DNA of 64,000 nt, from positions 1,286,001 to 1,350,000 of the forward strand of contig NC_011027.1 of the NCBI RefSeq assembly GCF_000020505.1, given 5' to 3'. Both the position numbers and the translations under genes were made by a program. Origin of the DNA: Chlorobaculum parvum NCIB 8327 (GTDB lineage: Bacteria; Bacteroidota; Chlorobiia; Chlorobiales; Chlorobiaceae). This document shows, piece after piece, positions 13,463-35,487 of the stretch. Position 1 is the first letter of the stretch. Each line of letters opens with the position of its first letter. The notes beneath the pieces were generated by a model, which was given only the letters and a program-made list of their open reading frames with translations, made no database searches and was not told where the DNA came from.

Positions 13463-13689
13463 GGTGTTGTCCTGTGTTGAATTAACTGAATCATCAACAG
13501 ACAGGGATAGAGGAAAAGGACTGAACCGGCGCCGAAACACAGCATGGATCGAACGGACTGACGAAAGCCGCGCTCAGCGGAAAGTACCGCAAGAGCAGCA
13601 TGGATTCTGAAAACGATGCTGTTGGTTTTCGGATAAACCGGAAGTGCTTTGCCTGACTATAACCCGTAGTCTTGTTACTGAGCAAAGAG

Positions 13690-13900
13690 CTAACTGGCAG
13701 GTCTCCTGACTTTGGCGGCTCAAGCAGTACGGCCTTCCCACCCGCTCCCTGGAGGAGCCTGGCAGTGACGCGCACCGACTGCAGCATCCGGACATGTGGC
13801 CATGTTCGTCAGCGGCAGCTTGCCGTTGTACAGTTGCGGGTACAGTGTACGAATCTCACGTACTTCCCTATTCTCCGGCTTTAAAACCGGCACCAGCTAT
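13690..13900 (-). promoter_or_regulatory. Cobalamin riboswitch upstream of btuB
   Basis: Read on the minus strand, the leader contains the B12-box AGTCAGGAGACCTGCC (13696-13711) and, upstream, the conserved ACTGTACCCGCAACTGTA core (about 13835-13855) after a GGGAAG element. These are the hallmarks of the adenosylcobalamin riboswitch. It ends about 230 bases before the btuB ATG. A small hairpin (GACTA/TAGTC, about 13654-13670) lies just downstream and could belong to the expression platform. The riboswitch probably represses the whole 13-kb operon when cobamide is plentiful. The rest of the 13463-13963 spacer shows no gene. Confidence 0.95.
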
Positions 13901-13963
13901 CATGTAAAAGAACGTTATCTTTGCGGAGGCAATTTACAATTTTCCGCCTCATTTGCAAGCAGT

Positions 13964-18028: not shown

Positions 18029-18902
18029 TCTAACTCCCCTTTTCATTCTCCTCGCGCTCTGTCTGCAAACGCTGGCGGGGTGCTCGAAACCGCAGAGCTC
18101 CGACAATGCAGAGAAAGCGGTGGCGGAAGTTCCGCAACGCATCGTCAGCCTCGCGCCGAGCCTCACCGAGATGCTCTACGCCATCGGCGCGGGGCCACAG
18201 CTCGTAGGCAGAACCAGCGCCTGCGACTGGCCCGCCGAAGCCGAAAAGGTGGCGGTGGTCGGTTCGTTCGGACGCCCGTCACTGGAGGTGCTCGCATCGA
18301 TGAATCCCGACCTCGTGCTCGACGTCGATCTTGACGATGACCAGACGGCGAAAAAAATGGCCGAGATGCACATCCGTCGCGAGCACATCCGCTGCCAGGA
18401 TCCCGAGGAGCTGCCCACCGCACTCCGCAAGCTCGGCGCGCTCACCGGCCACGTCCGGCAGGCAGACAGCCTCGCGACGGTGATCGAGCAAGGACTGGCG
18501 AAGTATCGCAAGGAGGCCGATGCGAAGCAGCACAAAACCCGCATCTACCTTGAAATCTGGAACGATCCGCTCTGGACAGGCGGTCGCGACAGCTTCGTGT
18601 CGCGGCTGATCGGTTACGCGGGCGGCCAGAACATCGGTGACGAGGTCGAGAAGGAGTACTTCCAGGTCTCACCGGAATGGGTCATCAAGCAGAATCCGGA
18701 CGTGATCGCCTGCATGTACATGGCCAACGAAGCGCCTGCCGCTGCCGCTTTGAAGCAGCGTCCCGGCTGGCAGGGCATCAGCGCCGTGCGCAACGACCGG
18801 GTTTACGACAAGTTCGACAACCGCCTCTACCTGCGCCCCGGCCCGCGCATCCTCGAAGGCATCGCCGGAATGAAAAAGCTGATCGAGAGCAATGAAGAGT
18901 AA
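18006..18902 (+). CDS. BtuF-like corrinoid-binding lipoprotein (second copy)
   Basis: A 298-residue binding protein from the ATG at 18006, with a lipoprotein signal (LALCLQTLAGC, lipidated Cys near residue 22). The mature part has the BtuF start QRIVSLAPSLTEMLYAIGAGPQLVGRTSACDWPAEA and the segment VLASMNPDLVLDVD, characteristic of B12-binding proteins. It overlaps the NUDIX gene by 23 bases and cbiA by 11 bases, forming a compact operon. No permease or ATPase is encoded beside it, so it probably shares BtuCD from the minus-strand operon. Confidence 0.88.
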   Translation: MPACSRRNLTPLFILLALCLQTLAGCSKPQSSDNAEKAVAEVPQRIVSLAPSLTEMLYAIGAGPQLVGRTSACDWPAEAEKVAVVGSFGRPSLEVLASMNPDLVLDVDLDDDQTAKKMAEMHIRREHIRCQDPEELPTALRKLGALTGHVRQADSLATVIEQGLAKYRKEADAKQHKTRIYLEIWNDPLWTGGRDSFVSRLIGYAGGQNIGDEVEKEYFQVSPEWVIKQNPDVIACMYMANEAPAAAALKQRPGWQGISAVRNDRVYDKFDNRLYLRPGPRILEGIAGMKKLIESNEE

Positions 18903-20220
18903 TCGTGGCTTTCTCATCGCCGCCCCGTCGAGCGGCTCCGGCAAGACGACTATCACCCTCGGTCTGTTGCGGCTTTTCGCGCGGCGCGGCATGGAGGTGC
19001 AGCCCTTCAAGTGCGGGCCGGACTACCTCGACACGATGCTGCACGCGATGGCCGCTTCGACCGGAGAAGCCTCGAAACCGGGCCTCAATCTCGATACCTT
19101 CATGGCCTCGAAAGAGCACGTGCGTTCGCTCTTCGCCAGCCACGCGGCATCGGCAGACATCTCGATGGTCGAGGGGGTGATGGGGCTGTTTGACGGAGCC
19201 GAGCGCTCGAACGGCAGCAGCGCCGAGATCGCCACCTTGCTTGGCCTACCGGTCATCATGGTGATCGATGGTTCGAAGATGGCCTACTCGGCAGCGCCGA
19301 TCCTGTACGGATTCAAGAACTTCGACCCGTCGGTCAACGTGGCGGGCGTGATCTTCAACCGCGTCGGCAGCGCGTCGCACTACAGCTACCTCGAAGCCGC
19401 CGCGAAGGACGTTGGCGTCGAACCGCTCGGCTACCTGCCGCGCAACAGCGCCATCACCATCGACGAGCGACACCTCGGCCTCAACACCTCGGCGGAGTAC
19501 GACCGCGAAAAGCTCATCGATGCGATGGCCGACCACATCGAAAAAACGGTCAACATCGAGCGGTTGCTCGAAGTGGCGCGGATCGAACTGCCGGAAGTCG
19601 AACCGATCCGTCCGGTGGCGAAAAAGTCGGGCAAGATGATCGCCGTGGCGCGGGACGAAGCGTTCAACTTCATCTACCACGCCAACATCGAGGCGCTCAA
19701 GCAGTACGGCGAGGTGCGCTTCTTCAGCCCGCTGCACGACCACGAGCTACCCGAAGCCGACCTGGTTTACCTCGCCGGAGGCTACCCGGAGCTGCACGCG
19801 CGAGCGCTTGCCGCGAACGCCGAAATGCGCAATGCTATCGCTGAATGGTGCCGCAACGGAGGCGCGACCTACGCCGAATGCGGTGGTCTGATGTACCTCG
19901 GCCAGACGCTCACCCTCGCCGACGGGGCGACCCACCCGATGTGCGGCGTGCTCGACCTCGACACCACCATGCAGGAGGCCCGCCTCACGCTCGGCTACCG
20001 CAAGGTGTATCCGGCGGATGCGAACGGTGTGGAGCTGCGAGGCCACGAATTCCACTACTCCCGCATCTCGCGGCAAGGCGAAATCGACACCATCGCCGAA
20101 ATCCGCAACGCCCGCGACCAAGAGGTTCCAACCAGCCTCTTCCGCGTCGGCAACACCATCGCCTCCTACCTGCACCTCTACTGGGGCGAACGCGACCATC
20201 TCGCTAACTGGTTTTTCTGA
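18892..20220 (+). CDS. cbiA: Cobyrinate a,c-diamide synthase CbiA/CobB
   Basis: CbiA uses glutamine and ATP to amidate the a and c side chains of cobyrinic acid. The 442-residue protein has the P-loop APSSGSGKTT at 11-20, FKCGPDYLDTMLH (the substrate region) at about 39-51, VEGVMGLFDGA, and a C-terminal glutamine amidotransferase domain with nucleophile Cys330 in TYAECGGLMYLG. Its start overlaps the upstream binding-protein gene by 11 bases. It is the only enzyme here acting before adenosylation, so the other corrin-ring genes must be elsewhere. NflD/CfbB relatives are possible but less likely. Confidence 0.93.
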   Translation: MKSNRGFLIAAPSSGSGKTTITLGLLRLFARRGMEVQPFKCGPDYLDTMLHAMAASTGEASKPGLNLDTFMASKEHVRSLFASHAASADISMVEGVMGLFDGAERSNGSSAEIATLLGLPVIMVIDGSKMAYSAAPILYGFKNFDPSVNVAGVIFNRVGSASHYSYLEAAAKDVGVEPLGYLPRNSAITIDERHLGLNTSAEYDREKLIDAMADHIEKTVNIERLLEVARIELPEVEPIRPVAKKSGKMIAVARDEAFNFIYHANIEALKQYGEVRFFSPLHDHELPEADLVYLAGGYPELHARALAANAEMRNAIAEWCRNGGATYAECGGLMYLGQTLTLADGATHPMCGVLDLDTTMQEARLTLGYRKVYPADANGVELRGHEFHYSRISRQGEIDTIAEIRNARDQEVPTSLFRVGNTIASYLHLYWGERDHLANWFF

Positions 20221-20255: not shown

Positions 20256-20900
20256 TCAGCGGTTCGTTCGCCGGAATGTGAACCAGGCGAACTCCTGCGT
20301 CGAGCCGGAAGGAGTAAGATGTTGAACGTCGCTTGATGAGACAAGTTTGAAGCGCGGCGCGAAAACGCTCGAAACCAGTGCGGCATCGTAGCGTTGCACC
20401 GTGAGACCGCTGCACCGTTCCGGGCCGTTCGTGGCGAAGGTGCCGATGATCGCCACGCCGTCCTCGTCGAGGCAGGCGTCGAGGCTCGCCAGATAGCGGC
20501 GGCGGTCATCCTCGCCTGTCATGAAGTGAAACACCGCCCGGTCATGCCACAGGCTGAATTTTTTTGGCGAGCGGAACGTGCGGATGTCGGCACAAATCCA
20601 GGCGACGCGAGAAGCTGACGAGCTTATCCGGTTTCGAGCTTCATCGAGCGCTTTTTGGGAACAATCCACAATCGTGATGTCGGCATAGCCGAGATTCACC
20701 AGCGTTTCCGCAAGCAGCGACGCGCCGCCGCCCGCGTCGATAACCGGCGCATCTCGGGCGATACCCGTCGCCTCAATCAGGCGCAGCGACTCCTGCGGGA
20801 CGCTCTGATACCAGCTCAGGCGCTCGAATGGCGCGGCGTGATATTTTGCATCCCAGTGCTGGCGCAGCTCTTCCGCTTCGGTTGAACAATGTCTGGACAT
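20256..20900 (-). CDS. Class I SAM-dependent methyltransferase downstream of cooS
   Basis: A 214-residue Rossmann-fold methyltransferase: motif I VIDAGGGASLLAETL at 53-67, acidic residue after the second strand in ITIVDCSQKAL, and RVAWICADIRTF as motif II/III. The N-terminus (HWDAKYHAAPFERLSWYQSVP) resembles TehB/thiopurine-methyltransferase-like small-molecule methyltransferases. It starts only 12 bases after the cooS stop and is thus probably the last gene of that operon. The substrate is unknown. Membership of the cooS operon hints at a small thiol, metalloid or substrate-derived molecule. Confidence 0.85.
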   Translation of the reverse strand: MSRHCSTEAEELRQHWDAKYHAAPFERLSWYQSVPQESLRLIEATGIARDAPVIDAGGGASLLAETLVNLGYADITIVDCSQKALDEARNRISSSASRVAWICADIRTFRSPKKFSLWHDRAVFHFMTGEDDRRRYLASLDACLDEDGVAIIGTFATNGPERCSGLTVQRYDAALVSSVFAPRFKLVSSSDVQHLTPSGSTQEFAWFTFRRTNR

Positions 20901-20912
20901 GTCGTTCCCCCG

Positions 20913-23030
20913 TCAACCATTCATGCAGCACGATTTGCCGATCTCGACCGTGTCAGGAATCGTCTCCTCGATCTCTTCCTTCGTACCGATGACGTAGTCG
21001 CTGACCGGCCAGCCGAGGGCTTCGCGCTTGCGATTGAGCATCCGCAGAATGTCTTCGGAGGTCTGGTAGGGATCGGGATTCCAGTTCATCGCCGCGCCGA
21101 CCATCGTGCGCAGCCGGTTGCTCACGTAATCGATAAAGCGGTCGGATGCGAGGGTATTGTCCTGCACGCAGGAGTAGGTTTCGATGCCGTTGAGGATGAA
21201 GGCGTAGCGCGCGCCCATCGTCTTTTCGGCGGCGGGGTCGGCAGCCACCATCGCAAAGGGCATCGCCGGATTTGGCTGGCCCGCCGCGTTGGCCGTGTAG
21301 GCCATGACCTGGCTGGCTCGCGTGCTGTCAGTGCACGCGCCGACGTGCAGCACAGGCGGAATCTGCAAGGTTTCGACCACCTCGCGAAGTCCGGGGCCGC
21401 ACAGCTTCGAGGCGTCCGGGTGCGCCAGACCGGCGAACAGCAGCCCCATACCGGAGCAGCCGTGGGCGGTCACGAGCACGTCGTTCTTGATAAGCTGGCG
21501 GGCGATGATGACCTGGTTGCGCTCGAACACCGCGCCGCGAATGTTGCCGCAGGAACCGAAGTTCACGATGCCGCGAATCTTGCCCTCCTCCAGCAACCGG
21601 GCGAGGCCGTGAATCTTCTTTTCGGGCATCGATCCCTCGAACAGCCGGGCGATCTCCTCGACGCTGAAGCCCAACTCCACCTTTGCCTTGATGTCGGGAA
21701 TATGGATTTTTTCGCTGTCGCGGTTGACATAGTTTTCGATGGCAATGTCGAGAATCTCTTCGGCAAGCTCGTAAATCCTGTCGAGATTTTTGAGATAGTA
21801 GTCGAGTTCGAGCACAATCGCCCCCTCCTTGCGGCCCGATGGCGAGGTGGTGATCACCTTGGTGTGGAAGCGACGGGCGACAGGCATCATGCCGGGCAGC
21901 ACATCCTGCTGATCGACCACGATCGCCTCGAACGCGCCCGTGGCGACGGCCATTTCGGCGGAGGAGGCCATTGCGACGAGCGGAATGCCGAGGTCGCGCT
22001 CGACGAACTCCCCGCCGGTGCAGCACATGCCGTAGAGGCGGATGTCCTCCGCGCCGACCGCCTTCACCTTCTCCATGATCTTCGGCGTGCCGACGATGTC
22101 GCAGATGGCGAAGGCCACCATCGGCGCGTGGCCGTTGATGCCGATGTTGATGCAGTTGTCCTTGCGGATGCTGCCGAGATTGACGTTGAGCTTCGAGCGC
22201 CGAGGCAGGCCGTACACGATATCAGTGGCGAGCGACGTCGAGACCACGGTGGTGTAGGCGTAGGCGAGCACCGTGCGCAGGAACGCCTGCATGTGGCTCT
22301 CGAAGTCGGAGTCTGTGCCGTGACTGGTGAGGTTGTTGGACTCGAAACACTCGTGATAGGCGCTGATCGGGATGATGCCGAGCTGCTCCCAAAGCTCCGA
22401 GCGCTCTTTCGGGGCGAGCGCAAAGAGCGTGTCGTGATGCTTCGGCAAGGCGCGCTGCAAGTCGTCGATGAAGCGGTCGGCGATCTCGACGCAGATCTGC
22501 TCGACGCTTTTGCCCTCGGCGTCGAGACCGAGCGCTTTGGCGACCGCCCACGCCTTTTCGGGGCACTTGATCGGAATCGGCGCCGATCCATCGCCTGCCG
22601 CCTTTAGGGCGATGAACACCTCGCGGGCGTGCGCGCCGTGCGCCGACATGCCCGAGGCGAGCCGCCGCAGCGCGTTGCCCGCGACGATCAGATCGACATC
22701 CTTCCCACAGATCGAGTGGGGATGCTTTTCGTTCACCCGGCACGGGCCGTACGAGCAGAAGGCGCAACACGCGCCGGTGAGGCCGAAACCGCACTGCGGA
22801 TGCTGCTGCATGAAGCGGTCGAAGGTGTTGCCTATCCCCTCTTTCTCCATGTGCCCGACCATCTCCGCCACCGCCTTGTTGGCCGTGTGGGCGATCACCT
22901 CTTCCTTGCTGTAATTGAGCTTGTGCACGAGCTTTATACGCTCATTCAGCGACATCCCCGGACGATACACCGGAGCCTGCCGCGAACTGGTCAGCTCGTC
23001 GTTGTACTGATATTTTTTCTCGTCTGACAT
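20913..23030 (-). CDS. CooS-type anaerobic carbon monoxide dehydrogenase homologue with altered C-cluster
   Basis: A 705-residue protein of the Ni,Fe-CODH (CooS) family. D-cluster cysteines 80 and 88 and B-cluster cysteines 89, 92, 97 and 108 are present (QCGFGLTGACC, FCSYGPC, ICGKD), as is His131. C-cluster ligands His301 (NGHAP), Cys336/337 (MCCTGGE), Cys494 (GSCGN), Cys525 (HGCSG) and Cys566 (VGACTD) and Lys603 are all visible. The remaining expected cysteine, found in family members in a DxQC-type motif, is Asp376 here (VVDQQDVLPG, codon 21903-21905). The enzyme should fold and bind Fe-S clusters, but its active metal site must differ from the canonical one. CO oxidation is therefore uncertain. 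Cytochrome, ABC-transporter and cooC genes lie upstream. Confidence 0.88.
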   Translation of the reverse strand: MSDEKKYQYNDELTSSRQAPVYRPGMSLNERIKLVHKLNYSKEEVIAHTANKAVAEMVGHMEKEGIGNTFDRFMQQHPQCGFGLTGACCAFCSYGPCRVNEKHPHSICGKDVDLIVAGNALRRLASGMSAHGAHAREVFIALKAAGDGSAPIPIKCPEKAWAVAKALGLDAEGKSVEQICVEIADRFIDDLQRALPKHHDTLFALAPKERSELWEQLGIIPISAYHECFESNNLTSHGTDSDFESHMQAFLRTVLAYAYTTVVSTSLATDIVYGLPRRSKLNVNLGSIRKDNCINIGINGHAPMVAFAICDIVGTPKIMEKVKAVGAEDIRLYGMCCTGGEFVERDLGIPLVAMASSAEMAVATGAFEAIVVDQQDVLPGMMPVARRFHTKVITTSPSGRKEGAIVLELDYYLKNLDRIYELAEEILDIAIENYVNRDSEKIHIPDIKAKVELGFSVEEIARLFEGSMPEKKIHGLARLLEEGKIRGIVNFGSCGNIRGAVFERNQVIIARQLIKNDVLVTAHGCSGMGLLFAGLAHPDASKLCGPGLREVVETLQIPPVLHVGACTDSTRASQVMAYTANAAGQPNPAMPFAMVAADPAAEKTMGARYAFILNGIETYSCVQDNTLASDRFIDYVSNRLRTMVGAAMNWNPDPYQTSEDILRMLNRKREALGWPVSDYVIGTKEEIEETIPDTVEIGKSCCMNG

Positions 23031-23050: not shown

Positions 23051-23821
23051 TCAGGGCTTTTTCAGCGACCGGACATAGCGCACCAGCTCGTCGATCTGCT
23101 CGCCGGTGAGGCTCTCACGCCACGGCGGCATGTAGTAAGCGTTGGACCGCGCCGGATCGGCGATGCCTTCTGAAATAATTTTTCTGAGTTCTTCGTCGCT
23201 CATCGCCTGCACCTCGCTGCCGCCGAGCGGCCTGATAGTAATGCCGAGCTTTCGCGCGATCTCTCCGTTGCCATCACCTTTCTTGCCGTGGCACATGATG
23301 CACGACATACCGTAAATGTCCGAAGCGGTGTAGCCGCTTTTTTTCTCCAGCTCGACCGGCACCCCTCGGTTAAGTACCCGGATATAGGCCACGATATCCT
23401 CGATCTGGGCGTAACTGAGCTGCATGCCGAGCGGACGCATGTGAATCGACTTTCCGTGCGACACGCCGCCCCGGCTGATGACGTCGTGAATCTCCCTGTC
23501 GGTTTTCCCGGCAAAGGAGTCGCGATCCGCCAGATCGGCTGGCTTCACCGAAAGCGTCCAGGCGTAAGGGCCGTCGCCGCGCCCGCTCTGACCGTGGCAG
23601 ATGAAGCAGTAGCCGAGGTAGAGCCGAAGGCCGTTGACCGCACGTTCGTTGGTCGTCGGGTCATTGCCGGTTGCGTGCTCCAACTCCGCCACCCCGGCCG
23701 CCGGCATATTATCCGCTACTTTTCCCCGCTTTTCGCCTAGCGGCTCGCCCTTGCATGCGCCGAGCAATCCCGTAGCCAGAAGGAGGCAGGTAACAGCCCC
23801 TCTATATTTCTTGTGTGCCAT
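23051..23821 (-). CDS. Diheme cytochrome c lipoprotein
   Basis: A 256-residue exported protein with a lipobox (LLGAC, lipidated Cys23) and two tandem cytochrome c domains. Heme sites are CFICH at 72-76 and CIMCH at 174-178, with likely axial methionines in HMRPLGMQLSY (first domain) and AYYMPPWRESL (second). It would face the periplasm, anchored to a membrane. It lies 20 bases upstream of cooS and shares its transcript. How a periplasmic cytochrome would exchange electrons with a cytoplasmic CooS-like enzyme is not clear, so it may act on the transported compound or on a separate step of the pathway. Confidence 0.88.
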   Translation of the reverse strand: MAHKKYRGAVTCLLLATGLLGACKGEPLGEKRGKVADNMPAAGVAELEHATGNDPTTNERAVNGLRLYLGYCFICHGQSGRGDGPYAWTLSVKPADLADRDSFAGKTDREIHDVISRGGVSHGKSIHMRPLGMQLSYAQIEDIVAYIRVLNRGVPVELEKKSGYTASDIYGMSCIMCHGKKGDGNGEIARKLGITIRPLGGSEVQAMSDEELRKIISEGIADPARSNAYYMPPWRESLTGEQIDELVRYVRSLKKP

Positions 23822-23859: not shown

Positions 23860-24669
23860 CTAAAAGACAAGATCAAGTTCATCATCCTTCAGAGACGAAT
23901 AGAGCTGAATGATCTGGTCGCGCAGATCACTGAACTCCGCATCCGTGCGACACACCTTTTCGTGCCGTGGCCGGGGCAAATGGTTCTCGATGATCTTTTT
24001 CACCCTGCCGGGATTGATGTCCATCACGCAGATTTTGTCGGAAAGGAAGATCGCCTCATCGACGTCGTGGGTCACGAAAAAGATGGTCGTCCTAGTTTTT
24101 TCCCACGCTTTCAGAATCTGGATCTGCATCTCCTCCTTGGTGAGGGCGTCGAGCGCCTCGAACGGTTCGTCCATGAGCAGGATTTTCGGGTGGTTCGCCA
24201 AAGCGCGCGCAATCGCCGCCCGCTGGCGCATACCGCCGGAAATTTCATGCACCATGTTCTCTGCAGATCCCTTCAAGCCGACGATGTCGAGGTACTCCAG
24301 CGCGATTTTTCGCCGCTCCTTTTTCGAGACCCCCTTGAGTTCAAGGCCGATCTCCACATTTTCTACCACGTTCCGCCACGGCAGGAGCGCGTACTCCTGA
24401 AACACCATCCCCTTGTGCGGACCGGGTCCATGCTCCTCCTTGCCGTCGAGAATCACGCGGCCCGAGGACTGCTCCAGGAGACCGGCAACGATTTGCAGGG
24501 TGACCGATTTGCCGCATCCGGTCGGGCCGAGGATGCAGACGAACTCCCCTTCGTCGATCTTGAGATTCACCCCCTCGAGCACCCTGAATTCAGCGCCATC
24601 CTTCACGAAGGTCTTGCAGACATCTTTCAGCTCAAGCAGAAGTTTTCCGGTTGTGATCGTCTCGTTCAT
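23860..24669 (-). CDS. ABC transporter ATP-binding protein, NrtD/SsuB/TauB type
   Basis: A 269-residue ABC ATPase of the nitrate/sulfonate/taurine class. Walker A GPTGCGKSV is near residue 50, the signature is EISGGMRQRAAIARAL and Walker B is ILLMDEPFEALDA, followed by the switch His in FVTHDVDEA. The C-terminal residues after about 225 are an extra charged tail (PRPRHEKVCRTDAEFSD) common in this subfamily. It is one of two ATPase genes in the cluster, 38 bases upstream of the cytochrome gene. Transporters of this class import small anions or sulfonates. Confidence 0.92.
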   Translation of the reverse strand: MNETITTGKLLLELKDVCKTFVKDGAEFRVLEGVNLKIDEGEFVCILGPTGCGKSVTLQIVAGLLEQSSGRVILDGKEEHGPGPHKGMVFQEYALLPWRNVVENVEIGLELKGVSKKERRKIALEYLDIVGLKGSAENMVHEISGGMRQRAAIARALANHPKILLMDEPFEALDALTKEEMQIQILKAWEKTRTTIFFVTHDVDEAIFLSDKICVMDINPGRVKKIIENHLPRPRHEKVCRTDAEFSDLRDQIIQLYSSLKDDELDLVF

Positions 24670-24704
24670 GTTTTTCAGATTTTATCTTTGACCGGCGAAG
24701 CCGT

Positions 24705-25513
24705 TCAGGCCACGCGGCAGGTTCGCATCCCGACATCCTTTTTGATGACATTCATCACCGTCTCGCGGAACGCCACGAAGCGGTGGTGGAACCCGGGATC
24801 GCGGGCCGCGCTGCCAAGCCTCGGCCTTGGCAGCTCGTTGCGCAGCACCGCGTCGATTTCCCCATGTTTGCCGAGCACGATGATGCGGTCGGAGAGCTTG
24901 ACCGCTTCGTCAAGATCGGAGGTGACGAACACCACCGTATTCTTTTCAGTCGCCCAGATGTTGGTAATCTCCTGATGCATGGTCATCTTCGTCTTCGAGT
25001 CGAGCGCATTGAAAGCGCCATCCATGAGCAGGATTTTCGGGCGGATGGCCAAAATCATCGCCAGCGACGCGCGGCGCTTCATGCCGCCGGAAAGCTCGAC
25101 AGGGTGCTTGTTGGCGGCGTAGCCGAGGCCGACCATGTCGAGGTAGCGCATCGCCTCGGCCTTGCGCTGCCCTGCGTCCATCTCGCGGTTCTGGAACTCG
25201 AAACCGAGTTCCACGTTTTTCAGCACGGTGCGCCACGGAAGCAGCGCATACTCCTGAAAAATCATCCCCCGATCCGCACCCGGCCCTGTGACCTGCTCGC
25301 CTTCGAGAAGGATGGAGCCGGTACTGGGGAAATCGAGCCCCGCAATCAGGTTCAGCAGGGTGGACTTGCCGCAACCGGTCGGACCGACGATGACGAGGAA
25401 TTCATTTTTCATCACCTCGAAGGTACAGTCATGAAGCACCTGCATCACCCCCGCTCCCGTTCGAAGCGTTTCGAAACATGCTCAACGCTGATGAGAATCT
25501 GTTCTTGCTTCAT
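24705..25513 (-). CDS. Second ABC transporter ATP-binding protein, apparently frameshifted near its N-terminus
   Basis: From 25448 (GTG) or 25445 (ATG) a 247-residue ABC ATPase is open, with Walker A GPTGCGKST, signature ELSGGMKRRASLAMIL, Walker B ILLMDGAFNALDS (the usual catalytic Glu after Asp appears as Gly) and a later VTSDLDEA where family members have VTHD. It lacks the normal first beta-strands. These are encoded just upstream in another frame: ATG 25513 gives MKQEQILISVEHVSKRFERERG, then stops at 25445-25447. Adding one G to the G5 run (25448-25452 on the plus strand as C5) would fuse the two. The stop and restart overlap as GTGATG. The changed Walker B and H-loop residues suggest a weak or inactive ATPase partner. 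Confidence 0.85.
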
Positions 25514-25524
25514 CGGTTCTCCCT

Positions 25525-26316
25525 TCAAAGTTTCCATGCGAATTTTTTAATCAACCACCGGTTGGCCGAGTCGAGCAGATAGCCGATCGCGCCGATTACC
25601 ATGATGGTGGCCATGAGCTGGTCGTAGCGGAAGCGGTCGCGGGTGTCGAGAATGAAGTAGCCGAGACCGTCCGGCACGCCCAGCATCTCCGCCGGAACGA
25701 GGATGATCCAGCTCACCCCTACGGCGAGCCTGAGGCCGGTGAGCATGTCCGGTACGGCAGCGGGGATAATCACCTTGCGCAGAATGCCAGTGTCCTTTGC
25801 GCCCATCGTTCGGGACATGTTCACCCAAAGCGGGCTGACCCGTCCCGCGCCGTGCGAAGTATTCAGGATCAGCGGCCAGATAGCGACCAGCCAGAGCAGA
25901 AAGGTCACGGAAACATCGCCCACACCAAAGATGATGATAGCGATGGGCATCCACGCAAGCGGCGAAATCATGCGCATGAACTGGAACACCACGTAAGTGA
26001 GCTGCTCGACTCTTTTGAAGTAGCCAACCAGAACACCGATAGGGAGCGCAACGATAATGGCCAGTAAAAGGCTGGTCAACACCCTGCGAATACTTGGAAT
26101 GGCGTGGTGTATCAGCTCTCCGCTTTTTATCATCTCGAACAGCGCCGAAAATGCCGCAACAGGCGAGAATGAGTCGCTGAAATCAGCGCCGAAAAGTTTG
26201 AACATGCTGGCGAGCTGCCAGACGGCGAGGAAGAGCAAAATACCGGTTAGATAAAATACCCTGTCCAGCAGTTTCCCCTGAACTCCTGTGGCATTGCTGC
26301 CATTCTGATTTGCCAT
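25525..26316 (-). CDS. ABC transporter permease, NrtB/SsuC/TauC type
   Basis: A 263-residue permease with about six hydrophobic segments, starting near residue 18 (RVFYLTGILLFLAVWQLASM). The coupling-loop region has SRTMGAKDTGILRKVIIPAAVPDMLTGLRLAVGVSW, a classical EAA-like motif of the nitrate/taurine importer family. It lies 11 bases upstream of the MKQEQ start of the second ATPase gene. With the binding protein and two ATPases it makes a complete importer, in which the two different ATPases may form a heterodimer. Confidence 0.92.
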   Translation of the reverse strand: MANQNGSNATGVQGKLLDRVFYLTGILLFLAVWQLASMFKLFGADFSDSFSPVAAFSALFEMIKSGELIHHAIPSIRRVLTSLLLAIIVALPIGVLVGYFKRVEQLTYVVFQFMRMISPLAWMPIAIIIFGVGDVSVTFLLWLVAIWPLILNTSHGAGRVSPLWVNMSRTMGAKDTGILRKVIIPAAVPDMLTGLRLAVGVSWIILVPAEMLGVPDGLGYFILDTRDRFRYDQLMATIMVIGAIGYLLDSANRWLIKKFAWKL

Positions 26317-26447
26317 AAAACAGATTCCGATAGCTGGTTACCAAAATATTCCTGACACGCGCGCGCCCACAACCGGCACGGGCGAGACGTGCCAGAACGA
26401 TGCCGGGGTTAAAATGGACCGGAGGAAGTGAACGATCCCTGACGCGG

Positions 26448-27677
26448 TCAGATGCTGATTATCTCTTCCCGGACGGTAGGTTGTTTGGGGTCGATTGCAG
26501 CGAACTGCGTCAGGCCACCGAGGGCTGAGGCCGCCGCCTCGACGCCCGCCGTGTACATAAGTTCACTGTGAACACGGCCGGGATCGAGTTTCTGAAGGAA
26601 GCTGGTGTCGCCATCCATTCTGGTCTGTTTCATCATTTCGACCATATGCCTGGTAGCCGACTCGAACTGGTAAGGCTCGTAAGAAAGACGGCGAGCATTC
26701 CACTCCGGATGCTTGATCGCGCCCGTGCCGGAGGGGCCGTAGGTTTCCAGATCGTACTTCATCATCGCTCGTTTTACGATCTTTTCAGGAAGTGGGAGGT
26801 ACTTCGACCCATCTTTGGAGAGGATATGCGCAGCCTGTTCGGGGTTGTTAAGCGCCCAAAGCTCCGCCTTGACCAGCGCCTGAATCACCTTGTGCGACCA
26901 CTCCTGATCGGCAATATCCTTCTCGTTCATGACCGCTACACAACAGGGGTGGTTTTTCCACACGTCGCCCGTGAAGCGCACGATACGACCACCCGCCAGC
27001 ACTTCACCAGCGGCGTTAAACGGCTCGGCGACGATGTACCCATCGATGGCGTTCGAGGCGATAGCCGTCGGCATGTCCGGCGGAGCCATGACGAACAGGT
27101 TGACCTGCTTGCTGCTCAGCGGCGCGGTCTTGCTCTGGATCACCGGTTCGATACCATATTCGCGGGCGATCATCTGCAAAATGATGTTGTGCATCGAATA
27201 CCAGTAAGGAATGGCGATCTGCTTGCCGCCGAGATCGGCATACGACTTGATGCCGCTCTCTTTGCCGACGGTTATGGCCGAGCCGTTGATGTGATCCCAG
27301 GCAACCACCTTGACCGGGAAGTTCTTGCTGTAGCGCATGTAGATCGGAATGGGAGCCAAGAGATGGGTCAGGTTGAAGCGTCCGGCCATAAAGGCCTCGG
27401 CCATCGGCGCCCAGCCGCGGATCAGCACCGGCCGTTCGGAGTCGATACCCAGCTCCTTGTAGAAGCCAAGCTCATGAGCAAGGATGATCGGCGTGGCGTC
27501 GGTAATCGGCAGGTAACAGCTCGTGACCTTCTTGCCGCCCTTCACCGCAGCGGAACCACCTTCGGATTTAGGGCTGCACGCTGCCAGCAATGAACTGCCG
27601 CCAAGAACCGCGCCGAGACCGATGGCCGACTGCTTGATAAAATCCCTGCGTGAAAAGCCATTGTTTCCTTGACTCAT
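26448..27677 (-). CDS. NrtA/SsuA-like substrate-binding lipoprotein with Tat signal
   Basis: A 409-residue periplasmic binding protein of the NMT1/nitrate-sulfonate class. The N-terminus combines a twin-arginine motif (SRRDFIKQS at 9-17) with a lipobox ending in Cys34 (SLLAAC), so it is probably exported folded and lipid-anchored. The mature part shows LPITDATPIILAHELGFYKELGI, GRFNLTHLLAPIPIYM, KQIAIPYWYSMHN and DGYIVAEPFNAAGEVLAGG, the usual two-lobe pattern. The ligand cannot be read from sequence. It is followed by a 131-base gap containing a 6-bp hairpin (26375-26393) before the permease gene. Two TAACAATTGTT palindromes lie upstream. Confidence 0.9.
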   Translation of the reverse strand: MSQGNNGFSRRDFIKQSAIGLGAVLGGSSLLAACSPKSEGGSAAVKGGKKVTSCYLPITDATPIILAHELGFYKELGIDSERPVLIRGWAPMAEAFMAGRFNLTHLLAPIPIYMRYSKNFPVKVVAWDHINGSAITVGKESGIKSYADLGGKQIAIPYWYSMHNIILQMIAREYGIEPVIQSKTAPLSSKQVNLFVMAPPDMPTAIASNAIDGYIVAEPFNAAGEVLAGGRIVRFTGDVWKNHPCCVAVMNEKDIADQEWSHKVIQALVKAELWALNNPEQAAHILSKDGSKYLPLPEKIVKRAMMKYDLETYGPSGTGAIKHPEWNARRLSYEPYQFESATRHMVEMMKQTRMDGDTSFLQKLDPGRVHSELMYTAGVEAAASALGGLTQFAAIDPKQPTVREEIISI

Positions 27678-28036: not shown

Positions 28037-28828
28037 TCAGAAAATTTTTTCTCTTTCTGTCAGGGATTCGAGGCGGTCAACAAGGCTCCTGATTTTTGCG
28101 ACCAGCTCCGGACAGGCCTCATACGGCATCGCCCCGGAAAGATCCGCGCTGACCGCCTCCATGTCGAACGGCATCCGCTCGATGACCCGCTCCGCGCCGA
28201 GCTTTCCGGCGACAGCGAGAGCCTGCTCCTCGCCGTGAAGCTTGTTGAGCACCAGGCGCGTCTCCGGAATGCCGGTGTGTTCAGCAAGTTCGATCAGCTT
28301 CCGCGCTGTGCTGATCGAGCGTTCGCCCGGCTCGACGACCACCAGCAACAGATCGACCGACTGCGCGGTACCGCGCGTCATGTGCTCAAAACCCGCCTCC
28401 ATGTCGAGCACGACCCATTCGTCGCGCTCGACCATGAGGTGCCGCAAAAACGACCGGAGCAGCGCGTTTTCGGAACAGTAACAGCCCGACAGCGCCTCCT
28501 TCAGGGCACCCATGACGATGGTCGGCACACCGTTCACATCGACCGAATAGCGGGAAACGAAATCATCAACCTTTGGATTCAGAACGAAATAGCCGCCAGA
28601 CTCCCCCGGCTTCGCTCCGGTGCGCTCCTCGATCAGCGCCTTGCGTTCCACCAGCGGCACGATAGCTCCCATCCGTTCGCTATCGTAACCGAGCGCATCA
28701 GCCAGCCCTGCATTGGGGTCGGCATCAATCGCGAGAACCTTTCGCCCCCTTGATGCAAGCTCCCTCACAATCATTGAACTGATCGTCGTTTTTCCGACGC
28801 CGCCTTTACCACTAATTGCTATTTTCAC
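28037..28828 (-). CDS. cooC: CooC-type nickel-inserting ATPase
   Basis: A MinD/ParA-fold ATPase of 263 residues from the GTG at 28828, chosen because GGAGGT lies 5-10 bases upstream. The upstream in-frame ATGs at 28840 and 28867 are less well placed. The deviant Walker A GKGGVGKT is at 7-14, the DADPNAGLADALG loop follows at 36-48, and a Cys-Tyr-Cys motif (GCYCSENALLRSF, Cys116 and Cys118) matches the CXC nickel site of CooC. CooC loads nickel into CODH. Its presence argues that the CooS homologue downstream is still a nickel enzyme. It is the first gene of the cluster. Confidence 0.88.
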   Translation of the reverse strand: MKIAISGKGGVGKTTISSMIVRELASRGRKVLAIDADPNAGLADALGYDSERMGAIVPLVERKALIEERTGAKPGESGGYFVLNPKVDDFVSRYSVDVNGVPTIVMGALKEALSGCYCSENALLRSFLRHLMVERDEWVVLDMEAGFEHMTRGTAQSVDLLLVVVEPGERSISTARKLIELAEHTGIPETRLVLNKLHGEEQALAVAGKLGAERVIERMPFDMEAVSADLSGAMPYEACPELVAKIRSLVDRLESLTEREKIF

Positions 28829-28861
28829 TTGCACCTCCATTGAATTTCGCTTCCCCATTAT

Positions 28862-28873
28862 TAACAATTGTTA
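28862..28873. promoter_or_regulatory. Palindromic operator candidate 3 upstream of cooC
   Basis: A third exact TAACAATTGTTA, about 34-45 bases upstream of the GTG start of cooC, in the context ATTATTAACAATTGTTACC. It overlaps the alternative ATG at 28867, which argues against that start. The same motif in front of both transcription units suggests one regulator for the whole locus. Confidence 0.55.
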
Positions 28874-35165: not shown

Positions 35166-35202
35166 GATGATATGGTGCTTTATTCCCGAAGCTTGTAAAA
35201 AA

Positions 35203-35395
35203 AGATGCGGCAGGTCTTCTGACTTTCCCGTGGTTTTGCCCTCCTTCCCGTCCCGAATTGTCGGGACAGTGGCCTTTTCGGCAAACCGTGTCAGCAGCCT
35301 TGCGACCGATGCGGGATTACAGCAGCGGGTACTGTTCCGGACTTGCACCGGATTCCCTTTTAAGCCCGTCACGATTCCATGCCGGGCACCACATG
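35203..35395 (-). promoter_or_regulatory. Second cobalamin riboswitch
   Basis: Read on the minus strand, this holds the standard AdoCbl riboswitch elements: GGTGCC near the 5' end, GGGAATCCGGTGCAAGTCCG, the core AACAGTACCCGCTGCTGTAA, and the B12-box AAAGTCAGAAGACCTGCCGC at about 35207-35226. A 7-T run follows immediately (GCATCTTTTTTT), suggesting control by transcription termination. It precedes a 118-residue unknown protein, not a recognised B12 gene. It is better conserved to the consensus than the btuB copy. Confidence 0.95.
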
Positions 35396-35487
35396 CTCGT
35401 GTAAAGTATATCAAAAACAGCGCTTCGAACCAATGCTCCGCGCGGAAATTTTCGATGACTCAAGAGTCCTCATCGCCGTCGTTCCAC

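Follow-up and report, generated by a model that had tools for sequence, protein, structure and literature searches.

A clade B CooS homologue of Chlorobaculum parvum with an Asp at a C-cluster Cys position, an apparently rebuilt second shell and a possible role in sulfur acquisition

The stretch of DNA analyzed here (hereinafter the window) comprises 64,000 nucleotides of Chlorobaculum parvum NCIB 8327, whose genome is a single contig of 2,289,249 bases. It codes for a 705-residue protein of the Prismane/CODH family (Table 1), whose score against TIGR01702, the NCBIfam equivalog of the canonical Ni,Fe-CODHs, lies under the cut-off of 478 bits, as do the scores of 425–451 in five other genomes of the same lineage. 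An AlphaFold model of the protein (pTM 0.89), with only moderate confidence around the metal ligands, is that of a CODH, with 6t7j as the nearest solved structure (TM 0.94 by target length). On the opposite strand, an open frame of 572 codons antisense to cooS (plus strand, 20889–22607) is a by-product of GC-rich codon use and should not be taken as evidence of a gene.

The cooS gene is the seventh of eight genes on the same strand, in the following order: a CooC-type ATPase, an SsuA/NMT1-like substrate-binding protein (closest solved relatives 3un6 and NrtA), a permease, two ABC ATPases, a c-type cytochrome, CooS and a methyltransferase-fold protein. Six of the seven intergenic gaps measure 12–131 bp, and the one between the CooC and binding-protein genes 359 bp. 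The same gene set recurs in other Chlorobiaceae, as far as their contigs extend. Genes for CooF, a hydrogenase or an acetyl-CoA synthase were not found in the window operon. A CooC partner, as the first-pass annotation had it, is indeed present: the ATPase with the CYC motif is 41% identical to the CooC-like ATPase encoded directly upstream of cooS in Heliophilum, and CooC was found in the window lineage and in a subset of loci from Heliophilum and purple bacteria. Its presence favors a nickel site in these groups. Directly beyond the operon lies a CobB-type gene (18892–20220), and two cobalamin riboswitches are seen elsewhere on the minus strand of the window (35192–35408 and 13679–13912).

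Table 1. Genes of the cooS operon and residues of interest in CooS, in window coordinates
Feature	Position	Strand	Basis or remark
CooC-type P-loop ATPase, CYC motif	28037–28867	minus	CbiA/ParA P-loop
SsuA/NMT1-like substrate-binding protein, twin-arginine lipoprotein signal	26448–27677	minus	PF13379; TIGR01728 below cut-off
SsuC/TauC-like permease	25525–26316	minus	domain matches
SsuB/TauB/NrtD-like ABC ATPase 2	24705–25448	minus	domain matches
SsuB/TauB/NrtD-like ABC ATPase 1	23860–24669	minus	domain matches
c-type cytochrome, two CxxCH motifs and lipobox	23051–23821	minus	PF13442/PF00034, two stretches; conserved in window lineage
cooS homologue, clade B, 705 aa	20913–23030	minus	PF03063, 335 bits; TIGR01702, 449.9 bits; tree
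Methyltransferase-fold protein, last gene of operon	20256–20900	minus	PF13649; adjoins cooS in several Chlorobiaceae
His301 codon (His261 of CODH-II, unique-iron ligand), kept	22128–22130	minus	alignment
Cys337 codon (Cys295 of CODH-II, unique-iron ligand), kept	22020–22022	minus	alignment
Asp376 codon, GAT (position of C-cluster Cys333)	21903–21905	minus	alignment with solved CODHs and relatives
Ala607 codon (position of Ile567 of CODH-II)	21210–21212	minus	Ala invariant in Asp clade, Ile canonical, Gln in B-4
Cys621 codon, new Cys replacing an invariant Gly	21168–21170	minus	column comparison

Alignment with the solved CODHs, with the numbering anchored on the PDB titles of the mutants K563A, I567A and H93A and on a ligand list, accounts for nearly the entire metal-binding apparatus. 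The D cluster is of type II, and no cysteine of the B cluster is missing (C80-x7-C88-C89, C92, C97, C108). Also retained are the acid–base pair (H131 and K603, equivalent to His93 and Lys563 of the clade F enzyme CODH-II of Carboxydothermus hydrogenoformans) and five of the six C-cluster ligands: besides H301 and C337, these are C494, C525 and C566, respectively equivalent to Cys446, Cys476 and Cys526. The sixth is the exception: D376 aligns with the Cys of the VDxQC motif, i.e., Cys333 of CODH-II, and the canonical C-cluster signature of one His and five Cys is hence broken at this position, in full agreement with the first-pass reading of these residues. That reading also held that the altered residue binds the unique iron next to nickel, and here it has to be corrected. 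The ligands of the unique iron in CODH-II are Cys295 and His261, whose counterparts are kept in the window protein; Cys333 coordinates one of the irons within the Ni-Fe cubane. That the metal site must be altered, as the first-pass annotation suggested, is upheld. No alternative Cys was found at the aligned site of D376, although Cys621, which comes from elsewhere in the sequence, is a candidate replacement ligand.

Scanning a single genome for each species yielded 80 relatives, of which 79 bear an Asp and one a Glu at the Cys333 site. As Asp is common to the relatives and Cys is found in none of the 80, a sequencing error or point mutation can be ruled out, and the residue is best read as a clade trait, as the first-pass annotation had allowed; indeed, Inoue et al. 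(2018) have already published D/E at this C-cluster position (their Cys2) for the groups B-1 to B-3 of clade B (PMC6344411). The relatives fall into two groups, namely ten other Chlorobiaceae loci, all with the same Asp, whose products share 85–97% identity with the window protein, and 70 loci at about 40% identity from Bacillota, relatives of Geobacter, purple bacteria, Verrucomicrobia, Bacteroidota and others. A Cys at this site is seen in a B-4-like set from Bacillota (L130–L140). In the tree, this Cys-bearing set branches first, followed by the split between the window lineage and the main Asp clade, with 100% bootstrap support at each step; the exact depth of the window lineage is less sure than this support suggests, because its stem is long (about two changes per column). 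The window protein thereby groups with B-type and B-4-like sequences, the letter B being assigned by the match in motif and transporter and not by the reference set of Inoue et al., and it is a member of a long, Chlorobiaceae-only lineage that is sister to the main Asp clade. Other Chlorobiaceae (L010–L013; L030–L032, L035, L043, L049) possess a main-clade B cooS in place of the window type, several of them with a sulfur operon, and no genome among those examined has both. Most of the clade B genomes sampled code for no other CODH.

The first-pass annotation further regarded the ligand as the only loss in an otherwise intact protein. This holds for the first coordination shell but not for the rest of the protein, where many other conserved residues are changed. 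Between 86 Asp-type and 29 Cys-type sequences, we found 18 columns that are fixed differently, D376 included. Among them are A358, which stands for a Gln, and Y333, directly ahead of the Cys295 motif. At the position of Ile567, all 18 clade E/F-like sequences have Ile, the B-4 sequences Gln and the Asp clade Ala. At column 610, equivalent to Trp570, the canonical enzymes have Tyr or Trp, and the Asp-type sequences nearly always Ala, Gly or Ser (Ala in the window protein). Column 621 is occupied by Cys in the window lineage and in 72 of 76 main-clade sequences, the remaining four having Ser; in the predicted structure, this residue sits at the end of a strand in the C-terminal domain, flanked by strands that themselves terminate in ligands. 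Because Ile567 and Trp570 adjoin the cluster in CODH-II and are changed here, the pocket near the cluster would be wider in the Asp-type CooS proteins. The replacements of Ile567 by Ala, of Trp/Tyr570 by a small residue and of Gly by Cys621 map to the same branch of the tree as the Asp, and the rebuilding of the second shell that they suggest goes beyond the published accounts that we consulted. In addition, nine otherwise invariant residues are changed in the window lineage alone; for instance, Asn stands in place of H299 and Asp in place of E598.

Clade B has been surveyed before. According to Inoue et al., NitT/TauT transporters accompany the whole of clade B and may import metal (PMC6344411). 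Bohm and Land, in a 2026 survey, found that 64% of clade B operons include ABC transporters and that maturases are almost never present, save in a small early-branching cluster, and concluded that the function of the clade, of which no member is characterized, is not deducible from context (PMC13056359). Cysteine synthase is named among the minor cooS contexts in a survey of the gut, where it is left uninterpreted, and in the literature searched, which covered few subscription journals, no paper connects sulfur regulation with CODHs or with clade B. The window protein resembles the groups B-1 to B-3 (PMC6344411) in the Asp/Glu at Cys2, the type II D cluster, the acid–base His and Lys and the adjoining NitT/TauT transporter (23860–27677), but its lineage forms its own branch at about 40% identity, its operon adds CooC, the cytochrome c and a second ATPase, and a His-rich end is absent. 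The B-4-like sequences share the clade and the transporter with it; they differ in the Cys at the site of D376, the Gln at the Ile567 position, the Gly at 621 and the adjacent cysteine synthase gene.

A common thread in the neighborhoods of clade B is, in our analysis, sulfur. An SsuABC-type transporter is encoded at 53 of the 70 Asp-clade loci, in addition to the window lineage. In all seven B-4 loci fetched, cooS is directly adjoined by a gene for cysteine synthase (CysK, above the equivalog cut-off). Within about 10 kb of cooS, we counted genes for CysK, a MetB/MetY-type enzyme, CysE, the family 2A encapsulin and its cysteine-desulfurase cargo, and found at least one at 31 of the 70 Asp-clade loci as against five of 80 controls (other-clade CODH loci, 1/40; random regions of five genomes, that of the window included, 2/20; random regions of Asp-clade genomes, 2/20); the corresponding Fisher p of 3e-8 is too small, as the loci are related and the controls match the taxonomy only partly. 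The matches are mostly co-directional with cooS, many of them less than 3 kb away, and are spread over six phyla; at the other 39 loci, many of them on short contigs, no such gene lies nearby. Examples are CysK-encapsulin-desulfurase-cooS-SBP-permease-ATPase (L035) and CysK-CysE-cooS-SBP-permease-ATPase-MetB (L030). The encapsulin, seen near clade B cooS together with its cargo and CysE, scores 483 bits (NCBIfam cut-off 380), and the desulfurase 789 bits, just under its cut-off of 800. A siroheme sulfite/nitrite reductase domain is present in most clade B genomes (16 of 20), which weighs against a sulfur role, and absent from four, including that of Ruminococcus flavefaciens; in these four, sulfide must therefore come by another route.

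Two neighbors of clade B cooS deserve separate mention. SrpI-like encapsulins of family 2A adjoin it in several phyla (L091, 16242–18915; L083, L035, L050, L053, L073, L034), with the desulfurase cargo in most. An acyl-CoA-dehydrogenase-like protein is encoded near it in Rhodocyclaceae and Verrucomicrobia (L061, 7921–9078; L073, L034, L067), with an OsmC-like gene adjoining in three; its identification as SfnB, of sulfur acquisition, was rejected, as the NCBIfam match is absent.

Regulatory RNA elements point in the same direction at some loci. Directly ahead of the Asp-type cooS of Clostridium luticellarii stands a SAM riboswitch (89.5 bits); this cooS is followed by the genes for the binding protein, permease and ATPase, and a strong terminator hairpin (z −7.2) stands between the riboswitch and the cooS start codon. 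Another SAM riboswitch (87.5 bits) heads the B-4 operon MetB-MetB-CysK-CooS-SBP-permease-ATPase of locus L157, and a T-box precedes the MetB-type gene that adjoins cooS at L086. The SAM riboswitches at the head of operons with a clade B cooS were recorded at L055, 3581–3892, with an intrinsic terminator before cooS, and at L157, 4568–12748. A genome-wide search of 24 genomes for SAM riboswitches found only these two within a few kb upstream of a clade B cooS, and at eight Geobacter-type and Chlorobi loci no riboswitch that ties them to sulfur was found.

The tie to sulfur is weaker in the window lineage than in clade B at large. Core Cys/Met genes were found within 10 kb of cooS at none of its ten loci. 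DsrE2 (218 bits, cut-off 210) is encoded directly upstream of CooC at four of these loci, and a TauE-family protein nearby at five; neither gene is seen there in the window genome, in which no homologue of that DsrE2 was found, and since sulfur genes abound in green sulfur bacteria, these neighbors may be a coincidence. A sulfur role would be carried over to this lineage from its sister groups and from the shared SsuABC-type transporter. The ssuA2B2C2 operon of Clostridioides difficile offers a parallel, as there too an SsuABC-type transporter is combined with a metal–sulfur protein, in that case an iron-hydrogenase-like and not a CODH-like one, and is associated with the co-regulation of sulfur and iron metabolism (PMC6311696).

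Taking these observations together, we propose, at even odds, that the environment of the active site in this clade B CooS was remodeled a single time, where the Asp clade begins, and that the protein most likely serves to acquire sulfur and not to oxidize CO. The SsuABC-type transporter would import a small sulfur compound, our first guess being a sulfonate or a similar oxyanion. The CooS homologue, receiving electrons via its intact D and B clusters, might then cleave or reduce this compound at a metal–sulfur site with Asp376 in place of the cubane thiolate and with a wider pocket. The released sulfur could pass into cysteine and methionine synthesis (CysK, CysE and MetB-type enzymes) or into an encapsulin that stores sulfur. 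Nickel insertion would, in the window lineage, be the task of CooC. That the reaction is other than CO oxidation, as the first-pass annotation thought possible, is plausible, but its account was incomplete with respect to the changed second shell and the sulfur-metabolism gene context. Our confidence is moderate in a sulfur role for clade B and low in any particular reaction; the Asp, the accompanying residue changes, the tree and the operon are observed, as are, for clade B, the statistical association with sulfur genes and the SAM riboswitches, whereas the extension of this association to the window lineage, the nickel, the substrate and the reaction are what we infer.

Several other interpretations have to be weighed against this one. 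The protein could still be a nickel CODH with a tolerated ligand change, with the cubane iron ligated by Asp376 or Cys621 and with CO and CO2 still interconverted. The retention of all other ligands, both acid–base residues and CooC speaks for this; the operon, however, has no CO-linked genes as neighbors, the residues at two positions close to the cluster, those of Ile567 and Trp570, differ, and clade B clusters with sulfur genes, such that we deem it unlikely. Alternatively, as in the proposal of Inoue et al., the ABC transporter might import nickel or another metal for CooS, with the sulfur neighbors being secondary. The His-rich ends in B-1 and B-3, the His-rich N-terminus in L055 and the kinship of the binding protein to 3un6 speak for metal import, but the transporter is of the sulfonate/taurine/nitrate family, with the binding proteins of L045 and L156 reaching 163.3 and 160.4 bits against an SsuA cut-off of 163.5, and SAM riboswitches precede two operons, which makes it somewhat more improbable still.

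A degenerate, or purely structural or regulatory, protein would be in keeping with the long stem of the window lineage and its loss of otherwise invariant residues such as H299 and E598; yet the cluster ligands and acid–base residues are invariant across orthologues that are 85–97% identical, and the operon with its cytochrome, transporter and CooC is conserved, leaving this reading very doubtful. CooS-V of C. hydrogenoformans (group D-1; PDB 7b7q, whereas the 7zkj-type entries were rejected as CooS-V because they align as having a normal C cluster) sets a precedent of another kind: it too is a CODH scaffold with one C-cluster Cys turned acidic, a swap that makes it an Fe-S-O protein inactive with CO. 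A hybrid-cluster-like enzyme of this type, acting in nitrosative or redox stress, would nevertheless have lost the other ligand: CooS-V has Glu in place of Cys295, as do the hybrid cluster proteins, and both keep the equivalent of Cys333, whereas the window protein has C337 at the first of these sites and Asp at the second. The type III D cluster of CooS-V and the Tyr at its acid–base His likewise differ from the type II cluster and H131 of the window protein, and we regard this as the most remote of the readings.

Returning to sulfur acquisition, what our analysis adds is a testable sulfur role for clade B as a whole, and the enrichment of sulfur genes on which it draws goes beyond the published accounts consulted. 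If true, such a role would explain the transporters, could be tested by growth and expression, would correct many annotations as "CO dehydrogenase" in bacteria of the gut, rumen and sediments, and would provide a natural case of a nickel–iron cluster whose chemistry a single oxygen ligand has shifted. At its broadest, and here we lean slightly toward doubt, a CODH scaffold would have been recruited, through the swap of Cys for Asp at the nickel–iron cluster and the widening of the pocket, for a novel anaerobic reaction releasing sulfur from a sulfur compound taken up by the cell, making clade B a family of sulfur-scavenging metalloenzymes and not one of CO dehydrogenases.
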